Source of the DNA: Nitrosococcus halophilus Nc 4
GTDB taxonomy: Bacteria; Pseudomonadota; Gammaproteobacteria; Nitrosococcales; Nitrosococcaceae
NCBI RefSeq assembly: GCF_000024725.1
Contig: NC_013960.1
Coordinates: 2,900,001 to 2,964,000 of the forward strand
Direction of reading: 5' to 3'
DNA: 64,000 nucleotides
Shown piece by piece: positions 3,144-47,504 of the stretch. The notes beneath the pieces are model-generated. The model saw only the letters and a program-made list of their open reading frames with translations, made no database searches and was not told the origin of the DNA. Made by a program: the position numbers and the translations under genes. The stretch's first letter is position 1, and each line of letters opens with the position of its first letter.

Positions 3144-3680
3144 ATGCCTAATTACCGACGGTTATATATAGAAGGCGGCGCCTATTTTTTTACTGTGGTG
3201 ACCTATGAACGCCGTCCATTATTTGCTGATGAGGACACTGTGCTCCAATTGAAGCAGGCGTTTCGCCATGTCAAGGCTCAACTGCCGTTCGTGATGGAGG
3301 CTATTGTGGTATTGCCCGATCATTTTCACGCGGTGTGGAGGTTGCCGCCGGGAGACAGCGATTATTCGGAGCGTTGGCGCCGGATCAAATATCGTTTCTC
3401 GCTTCAGTTTGAGGGCCTCTCGTCATGTTCCTCTTCCCGGCGTCGCCGTCGCGAGAAGAGGGTATGGCAGCGCCGCTTTTGGGAACATATTCTCCGTGAT
3501 GAGGAAGATTACCGCCGGCATTTGGATTACATTCATTATAACCCGGTTAAGCATGGTTACGCGGTGGCGCCTAGGGAATGGCCCTATAGTAGCTTTAGAC
3601 GTTTTGTGCAGTGGGGAGTGTATTCGCCGGATTGGGGAGAGTCTATGCCCCATTCCCTTCAAGGTTTGGAGCTAGAGTGA
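3144..3680 (+). CDS. REP-associated tyrosine transposase (RAYT)
   Basis: A 178-residue Y1/HUH single-strand transposase of the IS200-related RAYT family, which recognises and mobilises REP palindromes. Visible: the N-terminal GGAYFFTVVTYERRPLF block, the metal-binding HFH of the HUH motif in LPDHFHAVWRLP at about residues 57-68, and the C-terminal YIHYNPVKHGY block with the catalytic tyrosine region. Length and ends look intact. It interrupts the run of CRISPR effector genes in the same orientation and is flanked on both sides by matching REP units, so it probably arrived as one unit between the Csm6-type and Cam1-like genes. Confidence 0.9.
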   Translation: MPNYRRLYIEGGAYFFTVVTYERRPLFADEDTVLQLKQAFRHVKAQLPFVMEAIVVLPDHFHAVWRLPPGDSDYSERWRRIKYRFSLQFEGLSSCSSSRRRRREKRVWQRRFWEHILRDEEDYRRHLDYIHYNPVKHGYAVAPREWPYSSFRRFVQWGVYSPDWGESMPHSLQGLELE

Positions 3681-9387: not shown

Positions 9388-10371
9388 ATGGAGATGACAA
9401 CCTTATATCTTGATCGCAAGGGCCTGGAACTGGTCCGGGACGGGGGTAGGATGATGCTTTACCCGGCAGGGATCGCGGGTAGCGGAATTCCGTTGACGGG
9501 TATCAGCCGGGTGGTGATCCGGGGTGATGTGACTCTGAGCAGCGGTTTGTTGGGGGTTCTGGCGGAACAGGGGGTGGGCGTGCTGATGCTGAGCGGCCGC
9601 CATGGCCGCCGCACCGCCTGTCTTTTGGGCCGGCCCCACGCCGATGTGGCCCGGCGTTTAGGGCAATACCGGCTGTTTTTTGATCCGCGCCAACGCCTGG
9701 CCTGGTCCTGGCGTCTCATCGCCGCCAAGTTGACGGCTCAGCATCGGGGTCTGGAGCAGGCTTTGGCCGGCCGGCCCGATCAGCGCCGGGTCTTGACCGG
9801 CGCCCTGAGGAGTATCGAATCGATCCGGGATAAGGTCAAAGATGCCGAGAACCTGGAGGTGCTGAATGGTTACGAAGGGGCGGCAGCGGCGGCTTATTTT
9901 CGCGGCTATGGTGCTTTGTTTCCGCTGGAGCTGACCTTTAGCAAGCGGACCCGGCGGCCGCCCACGGATCCGGTCAATGCTTGTCTTTCCCTGGCCTATA
10001 CCCTGGTCCATTTTGAGGGGGTGCAGGCTTGTCAGGGGGCGGGGCTGGATCCCTTCCTGGGATTTTTTCACCAGCCGGCCTATGGCCGCGAGTCCCTGGC
10101 CTGCGATCTGATAGAGCCCCTGCGTCCCCGGATTGATAATTGGGTGTGGCGGTTGTTCCGTCAGCGGACTCTGCGGGCGGATAACTTTCGGCAAGAGGAT
10201 TCGGCCTGCCTGCTGGGCAAGGCCGGGCGGCAGCGTTTCTACCGGGACTACGAAGCCACCGCTCCCGCCTGGCGGCGCTGGCTGCGGCAACAGTCCAGAA
10301 TCATGGCTCGCCGGGTCTTGGCGCTCAGTCCCCAGGAGATTTTGCCGGCAGTAAAGGAGCCCCGGTCATGA
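9388..10371 (+). CDS. cas1: Cas1 integrase
   Basis: A 327-residue CRISPR integrase, which with Cas2 inserts new spacers. The N-terminal beta domain begins TTLYLDRKGLELV. The catalytic residues of the alpha domain are visible: E163 in NGYEGAAAAAYF, H228 in FFHQPAYG and D240/E243 in CDLIEPLRP. GGGAGAG precedes the ATG at 9388; ATG 9394 is a possible alternative. The stop overlaps the start of the next gene by four bases, so the pair is translationally coupled. Confidence 0.95.
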   Translation: MEMTTLYLDRKGLELVRDGGRMMLYPAGIAGSGIPLTGISRVVIRGDVTLSSGLLGVLAEQGVGVLMLSGRHGRRTACLLGRPHADVARRLGQYRLFFDPRQRLAWSWRLIAAKLTAQHRGLEQALAGRPDQRRVLTGALRSIESIRDKVKDAENLEVLNGYEGAAAAAYFRGYGALFPLELTFSKRTRRPPTDPVNACLSLAYTLVHFEGVQACQGAGLDPFLGFFHQPAYGRESLACDLIEPLRPRIDNWVWRLFRQRTLRADNFRQEDSACLLGKAGRQRFYRDYEATAPAWRRWLRQQSRIMARRVLALSPQEILPAVKEPRS

Positions 10372-11156
10372 AGACTCTCTACTTGGATATTTCAGAGCCC
10401 TACGCGGTGACTTTGGATGGGCCGGCCTTGCGCCTTCAGCGAGAGGGTTCGGCGGATCGTTGGTATCCTCTCAGCCGGTTGGCGCGGGTGGTGGATACGG
10501 GAGCCGGCAAATGGGAGATAGAGGCCTTGTTAGCTTGCCTGGATGGGGGCGTTACCTTGACTTTTCTCCACCGAGGAGGGCGCTTGCGGGGGCAGTGTTT
10601 TGGCGCTCGGGTCCGGGAGTTGGGATTGGGGGAGCGGTTACGGGAGTTGGTCAGCCAGCCTGGGTGGGAATCTGCTTATCAGATATGGCGGCAAGCGGCG
10701 GAGCAGGGAGTCATTCTGAATTTGCAGGTCACATTGCCGCTAGGTCAGGTCAATCCTCGGGTTCAATCCCTGCGCCGGGCCGTGACCACCTTGGCGCTTC
10801 AGTATGCTCGAAAGCCCCTGGTGCTCAAGGTGGAGCGGATGCTGGGGGGATTGGTCAGCGCCCAGGTGGCGGAACAGATTGAGCGCCGGGGTTTGGCTCG
10901 CCACCTTGCCTTTTTCAACCACAAGGGGTTGAAGCTTGTTCCTGATATGACTCAGCTGGCGTTATGGGCGGTGGAGCTGGAAAAACTTCACTTTTTGCAG
11001 CATTATCACCACCGCTACGGGCTCCTTACTCCGAGCATGTGGCCCCGCTTGCGCTATCCTTTGATTAGGGCCTATGAGCGCCATAGTCCCCAGATAGAAG
11101 GGCAAATTCGCTGTCTTTTAGATAGCTTGCATGGCTGGTTAGTGGAGCGGAGCTAA
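10368..11156 (+). CDS. Cas1-like protein lacking the integrase active site
   Basis: 262 residues. The first 80 or so align by eye with the beta domain of the Cas1 just upstream: KTLYLDISEPYAVTLDGPAL and LSRLARVVD correspond to TTLYLDRKGLELVRDG and LTGISRVVI, and VTLTFLHRGGRL to VLMLSGRHGRR. The C-terminal part is helical, with a WAVELEKLHFLQHYHH stretch, and has no EGxAAxxYF block and no H...DxxE motif, so integration chemistry seems impossible. It overlaps cas1 by 4 bases and the second cas2 by 1 base (TAATG). It could be a structural partner of Cas1 in a heteromeric adaptation complex. The function is unknown to me. Confidence 0.75.
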   Translation: MKTLYLDISEPYAVTLDGPALRLQREGSADRWYPLSRLARVVDTGAGKWEIEALLACLDGGVTLTFLHRGGRLRGQCFGARVRELGLGERLRELVSQPGWESAYQIWRQAAEQGVILNLQVTLPLGQVNPRVQSLRRAVTTLALQYARKPLVLKVERMLGGLVSAQVAEQIERRGLARHLAFFNHKGLKLVPDMTQLALWAVELEKLHFLQHYHHRYGLLTPSMWPRLRYPLIRAYERHSPQIEGQIRCLLDSLHGWLVERS

Positions 11157-11494
11157 TGCCGGACAATGCCAGACGTTTGCATTTGATTTGCTATGATATC
11201 GCTTGTCCGAGGCGGCTCGGCCGGATTCATCGCTATCTCAAAGGCCGGGCCGCGCCGGTGCAGTACTCGGTTTTCGTGGCTAAGCTGAATCGCCGGGAGA
11301 TCAGCCTCTTGGCGGCCCGATTGGCCCACCGGATTCATCCCCGCAAGGATGATATTCGCATTTACCCTCTGCCGGAGAAACTGGCCCTCCAGCGCTTGGG
11401 CAGGGGGGCTTTTCCGGAGGGAATTTACCTCTTTGCCGGCGGTGTGGAAGACTTTCTGGAAGCCCTTGAGCAGAACGAGCAACTAACGAGGTGA
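11156..11494 (+). CDS. Cas2-family protein (second copy)
   Basis: 112 residues. The N-terminus RRLHLICYDIACPRRLGRIHRYLKG matches Cas2, including the conserved aspartate in CYDI, then VQYSVFVAKL as the second strand and DDIRIYPL as the fourth. It differs clearly from the first Cas2 and has a longer C-terminal tail (GAFPEGIYLFAGGVEDFLEAL). Its ATG overlaps the stop of the Cas1-like gene (TAATG), so those two are translationally coupled and may work as a pair. Confidence 0.88.
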   Translation: MPDNARRLHLICYDIACPRRLGRIHRYLKGRAAPVQYSVFVAKLNRREISLLAARLAHRIHPRKDDIRIYPLPEKLALQRLGRGAFPEGIYLFAGGVEDFLEALEQNEQLTR

Positions 11495-11497
11495 GCC

Positions 11498-12895
11498 GTG
11501 GAAAAAAAAATACCTCACCGATTCGCCGGGAGCGAATCGGGACATCCGGAGGATGCCCCCAAGGGTCGCGCCAGGGAGGGCGCGCATCAAGGTCCGCGCA
11601 TCTATAATCTTTTCCCCTTGCTGGTGGGTTCGGTGCCTGATTGGGGGCAGCGTCTTCCCGAGATTGCCGCCATGAAGTTTAATTGGGTCTTTCTAAATCC
11701 TTTCCATGCCCCCGGTTTTTCGGGAAGCCTGTACGCCATCAAGGATTACTATCAATTGCATCCCTTGTTTCAGGGGGATCATCAGGAACCGCCGGAGCAG
11801 TTGCTGAAAAAGTTTGTTCGCCAGGCCGAGAAGCAAGGGTTGGGGGTGATGATGGATTTGGTCATCAATCATACCGCTAAAGACTCGCCCTTGGTCTCCC
11901 AGCATCCGGAATGGTATCTCCACGGGGAAGACGGTTCGGTCCGTTCCCCCTTTGTGGTGGACCCGGATGATCCTCAAAACGTCACGGTGTGGGGGGATCT
12001 GGCCGAGATTGACTACCGGCAACGGCCGGCCCGGAAAAGCCTCTTGGCCTATTGGAAAAAGTTGGTCCGCCATTATACTCAACTGGGGTTCCATGGCTTT
12101 CGTTGCGATGCCGCCTATAAGGTTCCGGGGGACGTGTGGGCGGAATTGATTGAGACCGCCCAGGAACTCAATCCAAAGGTCCATTTTTTCGCCGAAACCT
12201 TGGGCGCGCCCCTCCATCAAATCGAGCAGCTCCATTCCGCGGGTTTTGATTACTTTTTCAATAGCGCCAAGTGGTGGGATTTTCACGCCGATTGGTTGCT
12301 GGAGCAGTACGAGCAGTTTCGCCACATTGCCCCCTCCATTGCTTTTCCGGAAAGCCATGATACGGAGCGCTTGGCGGCGGAGTGGGGCGGTGAGGAGCGG
12401 CGGTCCCGCACTTGGTATCTGTTTGCCGCCTTCTTTTCGGCGGGGGTGATGTTGCCCATCGGCTATGAGTACGGTTTCCAGCGCAAATTGCATGTGGTGG
12501 AGACCCGGCCGGAAGACTGGGAGGAGCCCCTGTTCGATCTGGCCTCTTTTGTCACCGCGGCCAATGCCATGAAGGCCAATACGCCGGTGTTGAACGAAGA
12601 AGGCCCCCAAAGGCGTTTTACTTCGTCCGGCCACCCCCTAGTGGGGCTGCTGCGCCAATCGGAGCACACTGGGGAAAGCGCCGTGGGGCTGATTAACACG
12701 GATACGGAACACAGCCATGATTTTGGACTGGACCGCTTGGGGGAGGCGATGGGCGTGGACATCGACGCCATCCAGGAAATCACGCCTCTCCATCAAGCCG
12801 ATTCCCTGGCGGGACATCAGCGGATTCGGGTCGCCCCTTATAGCATGCGTATCTTCCATACGCCGGGGAAGAAAAAGCCCAAGCGCTCTTCTTGA
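11498..12895 (+). CDS. GH13 alpha-amylase-family enzyme
   Basis: A 465-residue retaining alpha-glucan-active enzyme of family GH13. Conserved regions are visible: MMDLVINHT (region I), FHGFRCDAA with the nucleophile aspartate (region II), FAETLG with the acid/base glutamate (region III) and FPESHDTER with the transition-state aspartate (region IV). No signal peptide, so it is cytoplasmic and would act on storage glucan or maltodextrin; hydrolase versus glucanotransferase cannot be decided here, though the IYNLFPLLVGSV start and PFHAPGFSGSLYA segment recall GlgE-related proteins. The GTG at 11498 has GAGG upstream. Residues 7-32 are encoded by an inserted palindromic element (11518-11592). It starts 3 bases after the second cas2 but is functionally unrelated. 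Confidence 0.82.
   Translation: MEKKIPHRFAGSESGHPEDAPKGRAREGAHQGPRIYNLFPLLVGSVPDWGQRLPEIAAMKFNWVFLNPFHAPGFSGSLYAIKDYYQLHPLFQGDHQEPPEQLLKKFVRQAEKQGLGVMMDLVINHTAKDSPLVSQHPEWYLHGEDGSVRSPFVVDPDDPQNVTVWGDLAEIDYRQRPARKSLLAYWKKLVRHYTQLGFHGFRCDAAYKVPGDVWAELIETAQELNPKVHFFAETLGAPLHQIEQLHSAGFDYFFNSAKWWDFHADWLLEQYEQFRHIAPSIAFPESHDTERLAAEWGGEERRSRTWYLFAAFFSAGVMLPIGYEYGFQRKLHVVETRPEDWEEPLFDLASFVTAANAMKANTPVLNEEGPQRRFTSSGHPLVGLLRQSEHTGESAVGLINTDTEHSHDFGLDRLGEAMGVDIDAIQEITPLHQADSLAGHQRIRVAPYSMRIFHTPGKKKPKRSS
11518..11592 (+). repeat. 75-base palindromic element inside a coding sequence (copy A)
   Basis: Three hairpins in a row: CCGATTCGC/GCGAATCGG around CGGGA; CATCC/GGATG around GGA; CGCGCC/GGCGCG. It ends GCGCATCAAGG. 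A full inverted copy lies at 38308-38382 and a partial one at about 14737-14772. Here it is translated as part of the GH13 N-terminus. Confidence 0.85.
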
Positions 12896-12930: not shown

Positions 12931-14739
12931 ATGAGCCAATTACCCATCGCTGACTATGCTTTGATTTCCGATTGCCACTCCAGTGGGTTGATTAGCCGGG
13001 GGGGTTCGGTGGATTGGCTCTGCTTTCCTCGCTTTGACTCCCCCTCCGTCTTCACCCGCTTGCTGGATGACACCGGCGGCCACTGGTCTCTCCGGCCTAC
13101 CTCGGAGGCGATGATCACCCGGCGGTATTTGGAAGGCAGCCTGGTTCTTCGAACCACTTTTCGGACCCCCACCGGCACGGCGGTGCTGCTGGATACCCTG
13201 GCCGTGGGACCCAATCTAGACGGCCACCATCTAGGGGCTGAGGTTCCCCATGGACTGCTTCGGCGGGTGCGTTGCACCCATGGAAAGGTGGAATTTGAAA
13301 TCGAATATGCCCCCCGCCCGGAGTATGGCTTGGTGCTGCCCCAACTGCGGCAGGTGGAGGGGGGGGTGCTGGCCCGTGGGGGGGCGGTGGTATTGCTGCT
13401 GTCCTCCACGGTACCCTTGAAAATTAGCGGTTCCACGGCCCGGGGACGATTTCGGCTCGATGCGGGTCAGGCCCTGGAGTTTTCCTTGCAGTACCGCTCC
13501 AGCTCGGAGCCCCCGCCCACGCCCTGGGTGCCCCATCGCATCACCCACCAGCTGGAGCAGACCGTCCGGGCTTGGCGGAGTTGGTCGAAACTGCACCAAA
13601 ATTATCAGGGGCCGTGGAAAGCCTTGGTTCAGCACAGCGGCCGGGTGCTTCAGGCGTTAACCTATTATCCCACCGGGGCGATTATCGCCGCCCCTACCAC
13701 CTCCTTGCCGGAAGTGGTGGGGGGAACCCGGAACTGGGACTACCGTTATAGCTGGGTGCGGGATGCCAGCCTGACCCTCGATGCCCTTTGGATCGCCGCC
13801 TGTCCCGATGAGTCCTATAAATTTTTTGATTTTATGGCGGCCTCGGCCCTGACCCAAGTTCAGCGGGGGGTGGATATGCAGATCATGTTTGGGGTGGGGG
13901 GGGAGCATGATCTCAGCGAGCGGGAGCTCTCCCATCTGTCGGGATGGCGGAGGAGCCAGCCGGTGCGGATAGGCAACGGCGCCTGGGACCAGCGCCAGTT
14001 GGATGTTTATGGAGAGCTGTTGAATGCGGCCCATCGGCTGCGGGACTATTTTCCCCACCTCGAGGAGACCCGCCAATTTCTGGCCCAGGTGGCGGACACG
14101 GCCGCCCGCCGTTGGCGGGAGCCCGATCAGGGAATTTGGGAAGTGCGCGGCCCGCCCCAGCATTTTCTTTACTCCAAGCTCATGTGTTGGGTCGCCCTGG
14201 ACCGGGCCATTGCCTTGGCGGATCTCTTGCAAACTTCCCACCGGGTGGAATATTGGCAAGAGATGCGGGCAAGTATTCGCCAGGCCATTCTCACCCAGGG
14301 ATGGAATGGGCAAAGGCGGGCCTTTACCCAAGCCTTTGGCAGCGATGTTCTCGACGCCGCCAGTTTGATGATGCCCATTGTGGGCTTCCTGCCGGCGGAT
14401 GATCCCCGAATGCTGAGCACCATCGATACTCTCGAAGCCCATTTGACTGATGGGCAGGGTCTGGTGTACCGGTACCGGAACGAAGATGGGTTGGAAGGAG
14501 AAGAGGGGGCCTTTCTGTTGTGTACTTTCTGGTTGGCCCACGCAGTGGCATTGGCGGGACAAGTGGACCGGGCCAAAAAGATTTTTTCCCGGGCCATTGC
14601 CTTTACCAACGACCTGGGCCTGCTCGCGGAAGAAGTGGACCCTCAGAGTGGGGAATTGCTCGGCAATTTTCCCCAGGCTTTTAGTCATATTGGCCTCATT
14701 AACGCCGCTTGGGCCATTGCTCAAGCGGAACGGGGGTGA
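12931..14739 (+). CDS. GH15 glucoamylase/trehalase-like hydrolase (first)
   Basis: About 602 residues, an inverting (alpha/alpha)6-barrel enzyme of family GH15 that releases glucose from alpha-glucans or trehalose. Motifs: an N-terminal ADYALISDCHSSGLISRGGSVDW super-sandwich start, GGTRNWDYRYSWVRDAS, DQGIWEVRGPPQHFLYSKLMCW with the general acid, and AEEVDPQSGELLGNFPQAFSH near the C-terminus with the general base. ATG 12931 follows TAGGGAG; the upstream in-frame ATG at 12892 would overlap GH13. No signal peptide, so it acts inside the cell. It follows GH13 by 35 bases and converges with zwf, whose last codons overlap its end. Confidence 0.9.
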   Translation: MSQLPIADYALISDCHSSGLISRGGSVDWLCFPRFDSPSVFTRLLDDTGGHWSLRPTSEAMITRRYLEGSLVLRTTFRTPTGTAVLLDTLAVGPNLDGHHLGAEVPHGLLRRVRCTHGKVEFEIEYAPRPEYGLVLPQLRQVEGGVLARGGAVVLLLSSTVPLKISGSTARGRFRLDAGQALEFSLQYRSSSEPPPTPWVPHRITHQLEQTVRAWRSWSKLHQNYQGPWKALVQHSGRVLQALTYYPTGAIIAAPTTSLPEVVGGTRNWDYRYSWVRDASLTLDALWIAACPDESYKFFDFMAASALTQVQRGVDMQIMFGVGGEHDLSERELSHLSGWRRSQPVRIGNGAWDQRQLDVYGELLNAAHRLRDYFPHLEETRQFLAQVADTAARRWREPDQGIWEVRGPPQHFLYSKLMCWVALDRAIALADLLQTSHRVEYWQEMRASIRQAILTQGWNGQRRAFTQAFGSDVLDAASLMMPIVGFLPADDPRMLSTIDTLEAHLTDGQGLVYRYRNEDGLEGEEGAFLLCTFWLAHAVALAGQVDRAKKIFSRAIAFTNDLGLLAEEVDPQSGELLGNFPQAFSHIGLINAAWAIAQAERG

Positions 14740-16280
14740 TGCGTGCTTTTCCCTGGCGCGCCCCCTTTAGGCTCAGGTAGAGTGGGGGCCAGCCAGCTCC
14801 TGCCACTGTGGGCGATTAAAACCTCGGCCGCTTCCGGCCCCCAGGTTCCGGCGCGGTAGTTGGGAAAATCCGTGGCCGGGTTGGCCTCCCATACTTCGAG
14901 GATGGGCATCAGCAGGCGCCAAGCTGCTTCTACCTGATCGGCGCGGGTGAAGAGGGTGGCGTCCCCTTTCATGATATCCCAGAGCAAGGTTTCATAGGCG
15001 GTAGGGGAAGTGGCCTGGAAAGCTTCCTGATAGCTAAAGCGCATCTCCACCGGACGCAGGACCAGATGGGGGCCGGGCTGTTTGGCCATAAATTTGAGCA
15101 CAATCCCTTCCTCCGGTTGTAGCCGAATAACCAATTGGGCGGGTTGAGCATTGAGTCCCGCTGAGGTGGGGAAGGCCTGGTGGGGAATGTCCTGGAAGCG
15201 AATGGAGATCTCCGAAGCCTCCACCGGCAGGCGCTTGCCCGTACGCAGATAAAAGGGCACCCCTTGCCAGCGCCAATTGTCCACGTGGAATTCCAAGGCG
15301 CAATAGGTTTCGGTATTGGAATCAGGGGCGACCCCTTTTTCTTCTCGATAGGCGGGCACCTGAGTCCCATTCATCCAGCCTGCTCCATATTGACCCCGAG
15401 CAGCATAGCGTTGCACTTCTTCTGCCGATATGGGCCTTATGGCGTGCATGACATCCATCCGGCGATCCCGCAAATCGTGGGCATCAAAGACGACTGGGGG
15501 TTCCATGGCGACTAAACATAACAATTGGAGGAGGTGATTTTGGACCATATCCCGCAGGGCGCCGGCACCTTCATAGTAGTTGGCCCGGTGCTCCACGCCC
15601 AAGGTTTCGGCCACGGTAATGGCGATATGATCAATATAGCGGCGGTTCCAGATAGGCTCGAAAATGGGATTAGCAAAGCGCAGGGCGAGAATGTTCTGCA
15701 CGGTTTCTTTGCCGAGGAAATGATCGATACGATAGATTTGTGACTCCTGGAAATAATGGTTTAAGGCCTGATTGATCCCACGAAAGGATTCCAAGTCGTG
15801 ACCTAGCGGTTTTTCCACCACGATCCTTGCCCGTTGCCGCGCTTTGGCCAAGTTGGCTTCACCTAACCCTTTGGCAATATCGGCGAACAGGAAAGGCGGC
15901 GTGGCTAGATAAAATACTCGTTCAGCCTTTCCATGCCAGGTTTTATCCTGTTCCACGAGTGCTTTTGCGAGCTGGGTATAACTGGTCGGATCGGTGATAT
16001 CGGCTTGCTGATAGCGGAGCGCTTGACTGAAGGATTGCCAGGTCTTGTCATCAGGAATGCCACGGCGGGAGTATTGCTGGATGCCTTCCCGGTAGTGTTG
16101 AGCCAAGGAATGCTGATCATAGTCTTGGCGGTCGACACCTATCAGGAGCCACTGCTCCGGAAGGTATTTATCCAAGTAGAGGTTAAACAGCGCCGGCAGG
16201 ATGAGACGCCAGGAGAGATCCCCTCCAGCGCCAAAGAGCACAAAAACCGTGGGTTGTTGCTGGGGGTGGTTAGGTTCCAT
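14721..16280 (-). CDS. zwf: Glucose-6-phosphate dehydrogenase
   Basis: 519 residues. Oxidises glucose 6-phosphate to 6-phosphogluconolactone, the first step of the oxidative pentose phosphate pathway. The N-terminal NAD(P) fold has FGAGGDLSWRLILPALFN; the active-site signature IDHFLGKETVQNILALRFAN is intact at about residue 188. Its start is 3 bases downstream of the gnd stop, so gnd-zwf form one operon. The last 15 or so residues (EPKGGAPGKSTHHPRSA) come from a partial copy of the palindromic element and look like an acquired tail. The gene end overlaps the convergent GH15 end by 19 bases. Confidence 0.96.
   Translation of the reverse strand: MEPNHPQQQPTVFVLFGAGGDLSWRLILPALFNLYLDKYLPEQWLLIGVDRQDYDQHSLAQHYREGIQQYSRRGIPDDKTWQSFSQALRYQQADITDPTSYTQLAKALVEQDKTWHGKAERVFYLATPPFLFADIAKGLGEANLAKARQRARIVVEKPLGHDLESFRGINQALNHYFQESQIYRIDHFLGKETVQNILALRFANPIFEPIWNRRYIDHIAITVAETLGVEHRANYYEGAGALRDMVQNHLLQLLCLVAMEPPVVFDAHDLRDRRMDVMHAIRPISAEEVQRYAARGQYGAGWMNGTQVPAYREEKGVAPDSNTETYCALEFHVDNWRWQGVPFYLRTGKRLPVEASEISIRFQDIPHQAFPTSAGLNAQPAQLVIRLQPEEGIVLKFMAKQPGPHLVLRPVEMRFSYQEAFQATSPTAYETLLWDIMKGDATLFTRADQVEAAWRLLMPILEVWEANPATDFPNYRAGTWGPEAAEVLIAHSGRSWLAPTLPEPKGGAPGKSTHHPRSA
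14737..14772 (-). repeat. Partial palindromic element forming the zwf C-terminus (copy C)
   Basis: On the minus strand it reads AAAGGGGGCGCGCCAGGGAAA then AGCACGCATC, matching the third hairpin of the 75-base element. The peptide GGAPGK is shared with the copy at 38308-38382, so the same reading frame is used. The first two hairpins are missing. Confidence 0.7.
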
Positions 16281-37075: not shown

Positions 37076-40000
37076 TCATCGTGCGACCACCTGAGCGGTA
37101 ACAGTCTGTTGTTGCTGGTCGCGCAGAAATTCAATCGTTAATGAATCGCCCGATTTGAGGGCGCGAAGGACGTTGGCGAAATCCGCCAGAGTATGGATAG
37201 CCGTGTCATTGAGTCGGATGATGATATCATTTTTTTGTAGACCCACTGCTTCAGCCGGGGTCTCGGGAGTGACCCCTGAGAGCCGGACTCCCGTTCCCGT
37301 CCAGCCAAAATCCGGTACGGTACCCAACACCACCCGCCGGCTTTGGCGGGGGTGATCCCTGGTTTCTCCCTGGTTGGCTAGCTGTTTTGAGTGCAGGGGG
37401 TCAGGACGGAAGGCCAGATATTCTACCGCCTCTTTCAGTACGGCAGCGATTTTGGCCAGCCCTTCAGGGTTGATCTTATCAATGGTGTCTGTGGGGCGGT
37501 GGAAGTCGGCATGGGGTCCAGTGAAAAGCTGCACAGCGGGAATCCCTGCGGTTAGGAAGCTGGTATGATCGCTGGAGCCAATGTCCTGGGGGACGGTTTT
37601 AATAGGCACGCCGGTAACGAAACCTATTCCCCGAAAGATATGCACCCACTCCCGGGCAGAATTGGCGGCAAGCACCAGGAGTTCACCACTGTCCAGGCGG
37701 CCTACCGTATCCAGGTTGAGCATGGCCATGGTAGTGTTTGCAGGAGACTCGCCTGAGTGTTCCACATAGTGAGCTGAGCCCAGCTTACCGGCTTCTTCGG
37801 CGGTAAAAGCGACCCACACCAGGGTGCGTTCGGGCCGCCAATGGGGGCCCAAAACCCGGGCCAATTCTAGCATCACGGCAATGCCGCTGGCGTTGTCATC
37901 GGCGCCGGGATGGATTTTGCCTTCATCACCTCGGTGCACATCCGGCCAGCCGCGGCCCAGGTGGTCATAGTGGGCGCCCACCACCACCTGGGGGAGTTCC
38001 GGGCGGGTGCCGGGGAGTATGCCCACCACGTTGCGAAGGGTGACGGTTCGTTCCGGTTCGCCGACCGTCGTGGTCCAGGTCTGATAGTAACTTCCCCCGT
38101 CCCCGCCAGGCTTGAGCCCCGCAGCCTGGAATTCATGAGCAATATACTGGGCGGCTTGGTCCAGTTCCGGCGTGCCCAGACCCCGGCCAGCCATCTTAGG
38201 ATCGGCCAGGTAAGCAATGTCTTGCATCATCCGTTGGGTTTTAAAGAGGGGAGGGAGTTCCACCAGGGGCTTGCGAGGGGCAAGTTGGGCCTTAATGGGA
38301 GAGTGATCCTTGATGCGCGCCTTTCCTGGTGCGCCCCCTTCGGGCCTCCTGGGGAGGTCCCGATTCGCTCCCGGCGAATCGGTAGCCAGCAGGACCGACA
38401 TGGGCGAATTGACCACCGGCCACTGGCCTTTCACCATATTTTCAGGTTCAGTGCCGGTGAAGCCTAAGTAGCTGTACTTGCCGTAATGGGGGAGTTTGCG
38501 GGCCAGTCCCGGCATAGCCGCCACCTGGTCCGTAGCCACCCAGGCGAGGGCATGATCGGGGTTTTCCCGATGGCGGCCCACCACCACGACCGAATGTTGC
38601 TTCCGACGGAGCTCGCTCCCCTCTAAGCGGAGGCGGTTTGCTTCTGCCTTATAGGCATAATCGGTGAGGGCTTCATTGAGCTGGGAGCGAAAGCGGTTCT
38701 CCCACCCGAATAGCCACACGGCCCGATCCGTTGGCAGCACGTCCAGGTCCGCATCGGTGTTGATTTCCAAATTTTCCCGCCCCCGCTGCCAGGCCCGGGC
38801 CAGTGCGGCGTAGCCTTCCCGCACCGCCCGAGGGGCTTGGGAAGGTAATACCGCCAGGGCCCGATCAGCGCCAAAAGCTTGGCTGAGTGCCGGTGGAATC
38901 TCATTGCGGTGGAGTCGCCGGAAAACATCAAACTGGGGATCCACCTCCAGCCGTAAGGGGCGGGCCGGTAACCGCAGTTTAAGCGAGTGGGTTTTTTCCC
39001 CCATGGAGAGGCGAGTTTGATACGCCTTCTCGGTACCTTCCAGATAAATGGCCAGGGGCAGCTCCAATTGATAGGGTTTGCCGGGCTGAAGCTGCTCGAT
39101 AGTGGCCGTCAAGAGGTATTCTTCCTCTAAGGGTTCAGCCTGTGCCTGGCGAACGCGTAAAAAGGGCGCTCCGGTGCCCTCTACCCACTGCTTAAAGAAA
39201 GATTGCAAGGGTTGATCACTCACCTGATTGAAAATTTCCGCTACCTCGTTAAAGCTTGCCACTTGGAACCGATACTGGCGATAAAGGCGCTGGAGGGCCT
39301 CGATAAAAGTTGAATCGCCCAATTGTTGGCGCAACATGTGAAATAGCATCAGGGTTTTGCCGTAGCCCACGGCTTGGGTGGCGGCACTGTGGCGGCTGCG
39401 GAATTCGGTCAGGGGGAAGTCTCCTTCTTCCCGCACATAATCGGTGTACTTTTGCAGCGTCTCACGCCGGTATTTTACCCCCTGGCCTTGCTGTTCTTTG
39501 AGCAGATGATCCGCCAGATAGCTGGTCAACCCCTCGGCCCAGTTGCCGGAATCGTAGTCCACATACACCCCGTTACCCCACCAGTTATGGAGAATCTCGT
39601 GGGGATAGGAGGAGCGGAGGATAAAGGGGAAGCGAATGACCCGTGAGCCTAGCAAGGTGAAGGAGGGCATTCCATAACCCGTCTCCCAGAAGTTCTCCAC
39701 CAGGGCAAATTTGCGGTAAGGGTAAGGGCCAATGAGTTGGCGGTACATTTCAATATACTGGGCGGTGGCGTCCAGGTATTTTCGGGCTAAGGCTTGGTCG
39801 GGTTGGCGCAAAAATGCCATGGTTTCCACCTGACCGGCTTGCTCCCGGTATTCGGTAAAGGGGCCCGCTATCAGATAGATTTCCTCCTGGGGGTGATCAA
39901 TGGCCCAGACTTCCTCGGTGCTGTCGTCCTCTTTAGCTTGCTGGGTGCGATTGCCCTGACTGATGGAATGCCATCCTGGAGGGAGCTGGGTCGCCAGGGA

Positions 40001-47108: not shown

Positions 47109-47504
47109 ATGTCTCGTTACGCCAAGAATTCTGGGGCGGTTTTCGCTCTCAAATATCACTTGGTCTGGTGCCCCAAATACCGTCGCAGCGTGTTGGTTGA
47201 TGGCGTCGCTAAACGTCTTGATCAGTTGATACGCGAAGTCGCAAACGAATTTGAAATGACAGTGCATGCGATGGAGATCATGCCGGACCACGTACACCTG
47301 TTCGTCGAATCCGACCCTCGCTGGTGCGTTGCCGAGATAGTCAATCGCTTTAAGGGTCGAAGCAGTCGTATCTTGCGTTCCGAATTTCCAGTTTTGCGTA
47401 GCCGTTTGCCGACCCTCTGGAGTCGCAGTTACTACGCTGGCACGGTGGGCCACGTATCCGAAGAGAGCGTTCGCCGCTACATTGAAAACCAAACGGGAAA
47501 GTAG
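47109..47504 (+). CDS. tnpA: IS200/IS605 transposase TnpA
   Basis: About 131 residues, Y1 HUH single-strand transposase. FALKYHLVWCPKYRR at the start, HUH motif in MPDHVHLFVES, and the C-terminal SYYAGTVGHVSEESVRRYIENQ with the catalytic tyrosine. Starts at ATG 47109 (SRYAKNSGAV); an in-frame ATG at 47082 would add nine residues and neither has a Shine-Dalgarno. The frame ends where tnpB begins. Looks active. Confidence 0.92.
   Translation: MSRYAKNSGAVFALKYHLVWCPKYRRSVLVDGVAKRLDQLIREVANEFEMTVHAMEIMPDHVHLFVESDPRWCVAEIVNRFKGRSSRILRSEFPVLRSRLPTLWSRSYYAGTVGHVSEESVRRYIENQTGK

Follow-up and report, generated by a model that had tools for sequence, protein, structure and literature searches.

The window, meaning the whole 64,000-nucleotide stretch of Nitrosococcus halophilus DNA that was analysed, carries a gene for a GH13-type protein in which a short structured element reads in frame as part of the coding sequence. 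A CRISPR Cas2 gene (PF09827) lies directly upstream of the GH13 gene at 11156–11494, preceded by a 262-aa ORF (10368–11156) that reads like Cas1 and gave no Pfam match at E ≤ 0.001. A second full copy of the element was located in an exported peptidase gene, and a probable partial one at the end of zwf. The features were as follows:

11518..11589, + strand: full 72-base element in the GH13-type gene, within codons 7–31; absent in three orthologues
38311..38382, − strand: full 72-base element in the exported peptidase gene, in the gene's own direction; clean 72-base insertion relative to three orthologues
11518..11540, + strand: hairpin 1, CCGATTCGC-CGGGA-GCGAATCGG, GGA in the loop; covarying across the class
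11543..11555, + strand: hairpin 2, CATCC-GGA-GGATG
11556..11565, + strand: small hairpin region, CCC..AAGGG; in many relatives CCCGAAGGG
11567..11584, + strand: hairpin 3, CGCGCC-AGGGAG-GGCGCG, GGA in the loop
11498..12895, + strand: host gene 1, GH13 / hDGE_amylase-type protein, 465 aa
37076..40465, − strand: host gene 2, Peptidase_M1 + M28 + PDZ domains, 1129 aa; insert between M1 and M28
14737..14772, − strand: probable partial copy in the last codons of zwf (14721–16280), mainly the third hairpin, E 0.0067

The original prediction had described a 75-base element with three hairpins at 11518–11592 and, inverted, at 38308–38382, and both copies were located there. The element proper was found to comprise 72 bases (CCGATTCG...GCGCATCA), the trailing AGG being target sequence, as indicated by empty sites; the three main hairpins were recovered together with an additional small CCC..GGG hairpin. 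With a covariance model searched against the window, the GH13 and peptidase copies, both also part of the model's alignment A1, scored 97.3 and 95.6 bits (E 4.3e-19 and 9.8e-19). The paired change noticed in the middle stem (CATCC/GGATG vs. CCTCC/GGAGG) was borne out among 24 copies, where the pair was C-G in 11 and A-U in 10. GGA was present in loop 1 of 98 and loop 3 of 99 of the 104 unique elements, counts to be read with the fact that the selection pattern for most loci included part of these two loops.

Because the peptidase gene is inverted in the window like the copy that it carries, both full copies run with their gene. As claimed, the GH13 gene used one reading frame (RFAGSESGHPEDAP...) and the peptidase another (TDSPGANRDLPRRPEGGAP...), which by eye was also that of the zwf piece. 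The zwf piece itself, proposed as a partial copy, gave a weak match in the window, confined mainly to the third hairpin. In orthologues of zwf, two relatives gave no alignment at this site and the third carried unrelated sequence, and the piece was therefore rated a probable remnant only.

To count further copies, a covariance model (R1) was built from 24 copies of the N. halophilus genome only. At E ≤ 0.01 it returned 47 matches in that genome, so that the search for other copies called for by the original prediction was answered amply, and 45, 2, and 3 matches in three other species of the genus (G003, the sister species, G001, and G002, respectively). A DNA search of the N. halophilus genome with the element gave 43 matches at E ≤ 1, and the repeat count is above chance expectation. 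By location, 14 of the 47 copies lay in 13 genes, 30 were intergenic, and 3 were ambiguous; some copies stood in tandem or were combined with other repeats. Eight copies, one of them weak, were clustered among metal-related genes (G000:C2, ~1.67–1.73 Mb), where the loci L012, L016, L017, L020, L037, L041, and L044 encode MerA-like, MerR, CusA/B, HlyD, and ATPase proteins, several of them interrupted in frame. In a DNA search of plasmid and phage collections, the 75-base element was unmatched.

The Pfam-supported host genes encoded GH13, a heavy-metal P-type ATPase, a solute-binding protein (SBP; two tandem copies), a glycosyltransferase, HAD, HlyD, an oxidoreductase taken for MerA-like, MerR, the M28 peptidase, CusA (at its C-terminus), a methyltransferase-glycosyltransferase, a cation ATPase, and MutL. 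Genes were called with a codon model trained on 33 long ORFs found in the window. This count left out an HMGL-type protein whose 5′ end sits in a composite repeat, a 642-aa ORF lacking a Pfam match, a protein touched solely by its last codons, the partial CusB and zwf pieces, and a 123-aa ORF, which we take to be recombinase-like. Ten of the in-gene copies ran with their gene and four against it, and three of the six frames were in use, so the coding share and frames asked about in the original prediction amounted to 14 in-gene against 30 intergenic copies and three frames. Several sites were termini or linkers; the insert separates the two conserved halves of MutL and, in the M28 peptidase, the M1 domain from the M28 domain. 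In MerR and the methyltransferase it fell inside a domain, and these products may consequently be damaged.

Spans divisible by three were counted in 13 of 14 in-gene copies, 17 of 30 intergenic copies, and 15 of 45 copies of the sister species overall (raw counts); the sole in-gene exception was one unit of a tandem pair totalling 150 bases. These in-gene multiples of three fit selection for translation and speak against excision from the RNA. A special design that keeps frames open found no support, with 4.35 of six frames open per copy (23 copies) vs. 4.09 in shuffles, no more than base composition yields. Frame keeping needs no such design, since 72 bases make 24 codons and, on composition alone, some four of six frames stay open. 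The copies in MutL and the heavy-metal ATPase were shared with the sister species, and two further sites also matched it on both flanks. The shared ATPase copy was identical at 74/75 bases, its flanks at 72/80 and 823/900, and the frame stayed open.

Comparison with orthologues pointed to insertion rather than to an ancestral protein segment, the residues being missing from the orthologues of three relatives. For the M28 peptidase and HAD, the orthologues in all three were shorter by exactly 72 bases, with clean joins; for GH13 the difference was 72 bases relative to the sister species and 69 relative to the other two, with a nearly clean join. The partial 31-base copy in CusB was missing from both relatives compared. 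Relatives lacked the element in the glycosyltransferase gene, yet the site bears an element-like tail, and an element-like remnant was found at the SBP site of the sister species. Alignments of HlyD and MerA orthologues were ambiguous, those of CusA and FAH uninformative, and MerR and HMGL had no usable orthologue.

Intergenic repeats supplied independent evidence of insertion. An outer repeat of ~64 bases with two hairpins (GGGACAGGGAAGTCCCC and TTTTTTCAGGGAGGAAAAA, e.g., G003:C1:2979349-2979412), the loops of which are also AGGGA, was free of the element in at least 40 places (at least 13 in N. halophilus and at least 27 in the sister species), and these copies continued through GCA|AAC, the exact interruption point of the filled copies. 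For a second outer repeat, one full-length empty copy was seen among the matches listed, in the sister species. Target-site duplication was absent at the clean 72-base joins (M28, HAD, and empty outer repeats); judged from these sequences, there is no duplication longer than one base, and a 1-bp duplication of A is compatible with the joins. The target was mostly A|A, with A at position −1 in 90/99 and at +1 in 73/99. Hairpin loops as targets, suggested by T-arm, REP, and GH13 sites, were rejected, since stems of ≥5 across the site were found in 3/99 vs. a permuted mean of 4.2.

Beyond the genus, R1 found matches in other genomes of this order, where the stems differed and the loops were the same. 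In an alignment of 28 sequences, 93.9% of cells were paired and 17/21 pairs had two-sided changes, with 0/500 shuffles as high. The wider model (R2) built from this alignment matched 154/369 genomes of the class at E ≤ 1e-4, N. halophilus included, and 88/398 genomes of the phylum sample at E ≤ 1e-5. For 113 matches (106 distinct), in an alignment fitted to the structure, 97.5% of cells paired, the covariation score was 0.626 vs. 0.150 in shuffles, and 18/21 pairs had two-sided changes (562 two-sided cells vs. 158.3 in shuffles). Among the matches listed from a pattern scan were contigs of Pseudomonas, Marinobacterium, Rheinheimera, Methylophaga, and Enterobacter, and R2 matched loci from all five genera. 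Most units of the family measure 67 or 72 bases and have covarying stems and as many as four hairpins. In other lineages it was found in frame in UbiD (L147), YqeY (L150), and a DEAD-box helicase (L187), and reversed in a Mutator transposase (L162), as judged by domain matches flanking the copy or by a gap within the domain; these were 4 of the 20 frames scanned, from 35 candidate frames, with a one-sided domain in 3 more and none in 13. In G001, a DUF6079 protein contained the element in frame mid-protein within an open frame of 833 codons (L113:2-2500).

The two models, both built without any E. coli or Enterobacter sequence, recovered the core of the E. coli tRNA-linked repeat (TLR) rrB, which lies between the rrnB terminators: R1 at 49.0 bits (E 2.8e-10 in 2,502 bases) and R2 at 58.7 bits (E 1.5e-12 in 20,063 bases). 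The rrnB T1-T2 terminator piece is used in laboratory vectors. Twenty-two TLRs are reported from E. coli (PMC8144298); the present analysis covered rrB and the RttR locus. Among 111 elements, counted with arrays taken per copy and with L154 and L231 repeating the same three places, 26 lay no more than 600 bases downstream of a tRNA, including 14 at 69–97 bases. At 12 of 41 places (10 loci, by eye) the flanks spelled a tRNA T-arm interrupted in its loop. Interrupted whole tRNA genes were rejected because ARAGORN gave no tRNA for the joined flanks of the 41 places, and the interrupted sequences were thus regarded as tRNA fragments; intact tRNAs were nearby in most of the T-arm loci scanned. Elements also stood behind a 5S gene in L116 and L120 (by eye in partial 5S copies) and in L143. 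Judged from their flanks, copies outside the genus occupy incomplete 3′ ends of tRNA or 5S genes, as published for TLRs. A tRNA search found none in the 43 N. halophilus copy loci or in the 64-kb window, so those copies, judged by tRNA genes, are not in a TLR position.

RtT RNA (RF00391; E. coli RttR) is probably a diverged member of the family. This link rests on two intermediates and on reading by eye, because neither model matched the E. coli RttR repeats (R2 at E ≤ 1; R1 likewise). The intermediates L161 and L299 matched both R2 and the Rfam RtT model, L161 over the full RtT length at 40.5 bits (gathering score 45) and R2 at 75.5 bits. The RF00391 model had no match in the window or the N. 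halophilus genome, no Rfam family reached its gathering score in the window or four other loci, and the E. coli rrB core had no Rfam match at E ≤ 0.1. Weak Rfam matches in the window, e.g., PrrB_RsmZ (11.6 of 44), were taken as chance. The annotated E. coli ORF tpr (L290:1488-1577) runs through the RttR/TLR core, a parallel open frame.

Taken together, these comparisons of sequence and predicted fold led us to interpret the element, with a probability of roughly 0.85, as a dispersed core copy from a family of structured repeats found widely in Gammaproteobacteria, E. coli rrB among them, with RtT/RttR probably a diverged member. They also suggest that a sequence long regarded as a puzzle is one member of a mobile-element family. 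The element would be non-autonomous, moved in trans by an enzyme recognising its fold or conserved loops. Insertions in genes would survive if the frame was open and the site tolerant, and would then add 24 translated codons, neutral tolerance probably being the simplest reading of the gene copies. In stable-RNA operons, the unit would be retained as RNA, the GGA loops of which may bind CsrA, as RrB does in vitro. A bolder and tentative proposal, to which we give somewhat less than even odds, is that the E. coli TLRs, including the rrnB T1-T2 piece, could descend, through domestication, from an RNA-like element mobile across the class, one that inserts exactly into stable-RNA and protein genes without target duplication, through an undescribed process that may be guided by RNA or by the fold.

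How the element moved leaves two competitors to dedicated mobilisation of this kind. Passive spread by template switching or recombination between similar repeats, with no dedicated enzyme, would account for the lack of duplication, the tandem copies, and the composites with other repeats; it is nevertheless rather unlikely, given an exact insertion point biased to A|A in unrelated genes and flank pairing across the site no commoner (3/99) than in permuted flanks (4.2). We regard as quite unlikely a REP-type palindrome mobilised by RAYT (Y1) transposases. Matches to Y1_Tnp numbered 17 in the N. halophilus genome, Y1 was commoner in genomes with the element (118/154) than in those without (123/215), and some copies interrupted hairpins beginning GTAG (by eye). 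Against this, 36 of the 154 element-bearing genomes had no Y1 match at E ≤ 0.001, the Y1-less draft genomes including two with at least 12 and at least 11 copies, and the length and hairpin number are unlike those of REPs, described as 20–40 bp (PMC3733652). RAYT as a required mover was thus unsupported, though Y1 is commoner where the element occurs. Within the window, Y1_Tnp (RAYT/IS200-type) matches were present at 3183–3536 and 47139–47492.

The copies inside genes invite two further explanations. If the folded 72-base unit were an RNA-level intron or excised segment, spliced or cut from transcripts, its tolerance would follow, and both the precise insertion without duplication and the strong conserved fold would suit it; splicing would not, however, require the stop-free spans divisible by three of 13 of the 14 in-gene copies, and the ATPase copy shared with the sister species keeps an open frame, making excision very improbable. 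That the segments are ancestral parts of these proteins, alike by coincidence, has a negligible chance of being correct: nothing was found in its favour, the segments are missing from orthologues, both strands and three frames are used, and intergenic repeats interrupted by this DNA also occur empty.

A possible function is provided by RrB, reported to bind CsrA in vitro via GGA motifs, while the 19 TLRs in tRNA operons are described in the same source as not predicted CsrA binders (PMC8144298). A CsrA gene was found in 10/10 genomes tested, and CsrA binding by an RNA form of the element is a plausible function by analogy with RrB. The class-wide set of GGA-looped structured sequences may, on this analogy, act on CsrA. 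According to PMC8144298, the first description of TLRs dates from 1978, and no function was known for them until the 2021 work on CsrA. Titles and abstract openings in the literature yielded nothing joining TLRs to intragenic insertions or to repeats of the N. halophilus genus, and no account of TLR origin. Linking a TLR to a dispersed, gene-invading repeat makes the origin of TLRs testable.

The resemblance to Rickettsia palindromic elements (RPE) drawn in the original prediction held for behaviour (in frame, tolerated, several frames) and failed for length and form. Both are palindromic repeats in frame in unrelated ORFs, here 14 copies in 13 genes, and RPE are reported from many unrelated genes, RNA genes included (PMC2229807, PMC10969869). 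RPE differ, by their descriptions rather than by sequence comparison, in being long stem-loops of 105–146 bp with terminal inverted repeats, vs. consecutive hairpins over 72 bp here, and in belonging to another bacterial class. Protein-coding palindromes are thus known from Rickettsia and, as REPs, from other bacteria, intragenic GTAG and CGTC REPs being reported for several species, including Thioalkalivibrio and Xanthomonas (PMC3733652). REPs are described there as palindromes of 20–40 bp with a tag at one end, unlike the 72-base element, and the GTAG type as linked to tyrosine transposases (PMC3733652). The present family is a different, structured one, reaching conserved proteins such as UbiD and MutL. 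MITE traits, i.e., terminal inverted repeats and target-site duplication, were lacking in the element, the 72-base joins being clean.

The comparison with RPE overlooked the closest family: the element matches the core of an E. coli TLR. In RtT, a core containing CCCGAAGGG likewise breaks into the T-loop of a tRNA 3′ fragment (by eye), and E. coli RttR overlaps the small ORF tpr. With rrB, the element shares GGA loops and a core whose sequence and fold match both models, and by eye the rrB core splits an incomplete copy of the 5S 3′ end. Published TLRs occupy tRNA/rRNA operons and carry 18–19 bp of the RNA gene's 3′ end, whereas the N. halophilus copies are dispersed, some of them inside protein genes. 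A 3′ end repeating 18–19 bp of an upstream RNA gene was lacking in the window copies, the flanks of which are protein-coding, and they therefore represent the TLR core rather than a TLR in the strict sense. The original observation is thus real and more general than its first reading: it is of a dispersed TLR core behaving as a protein-coding palindrome.
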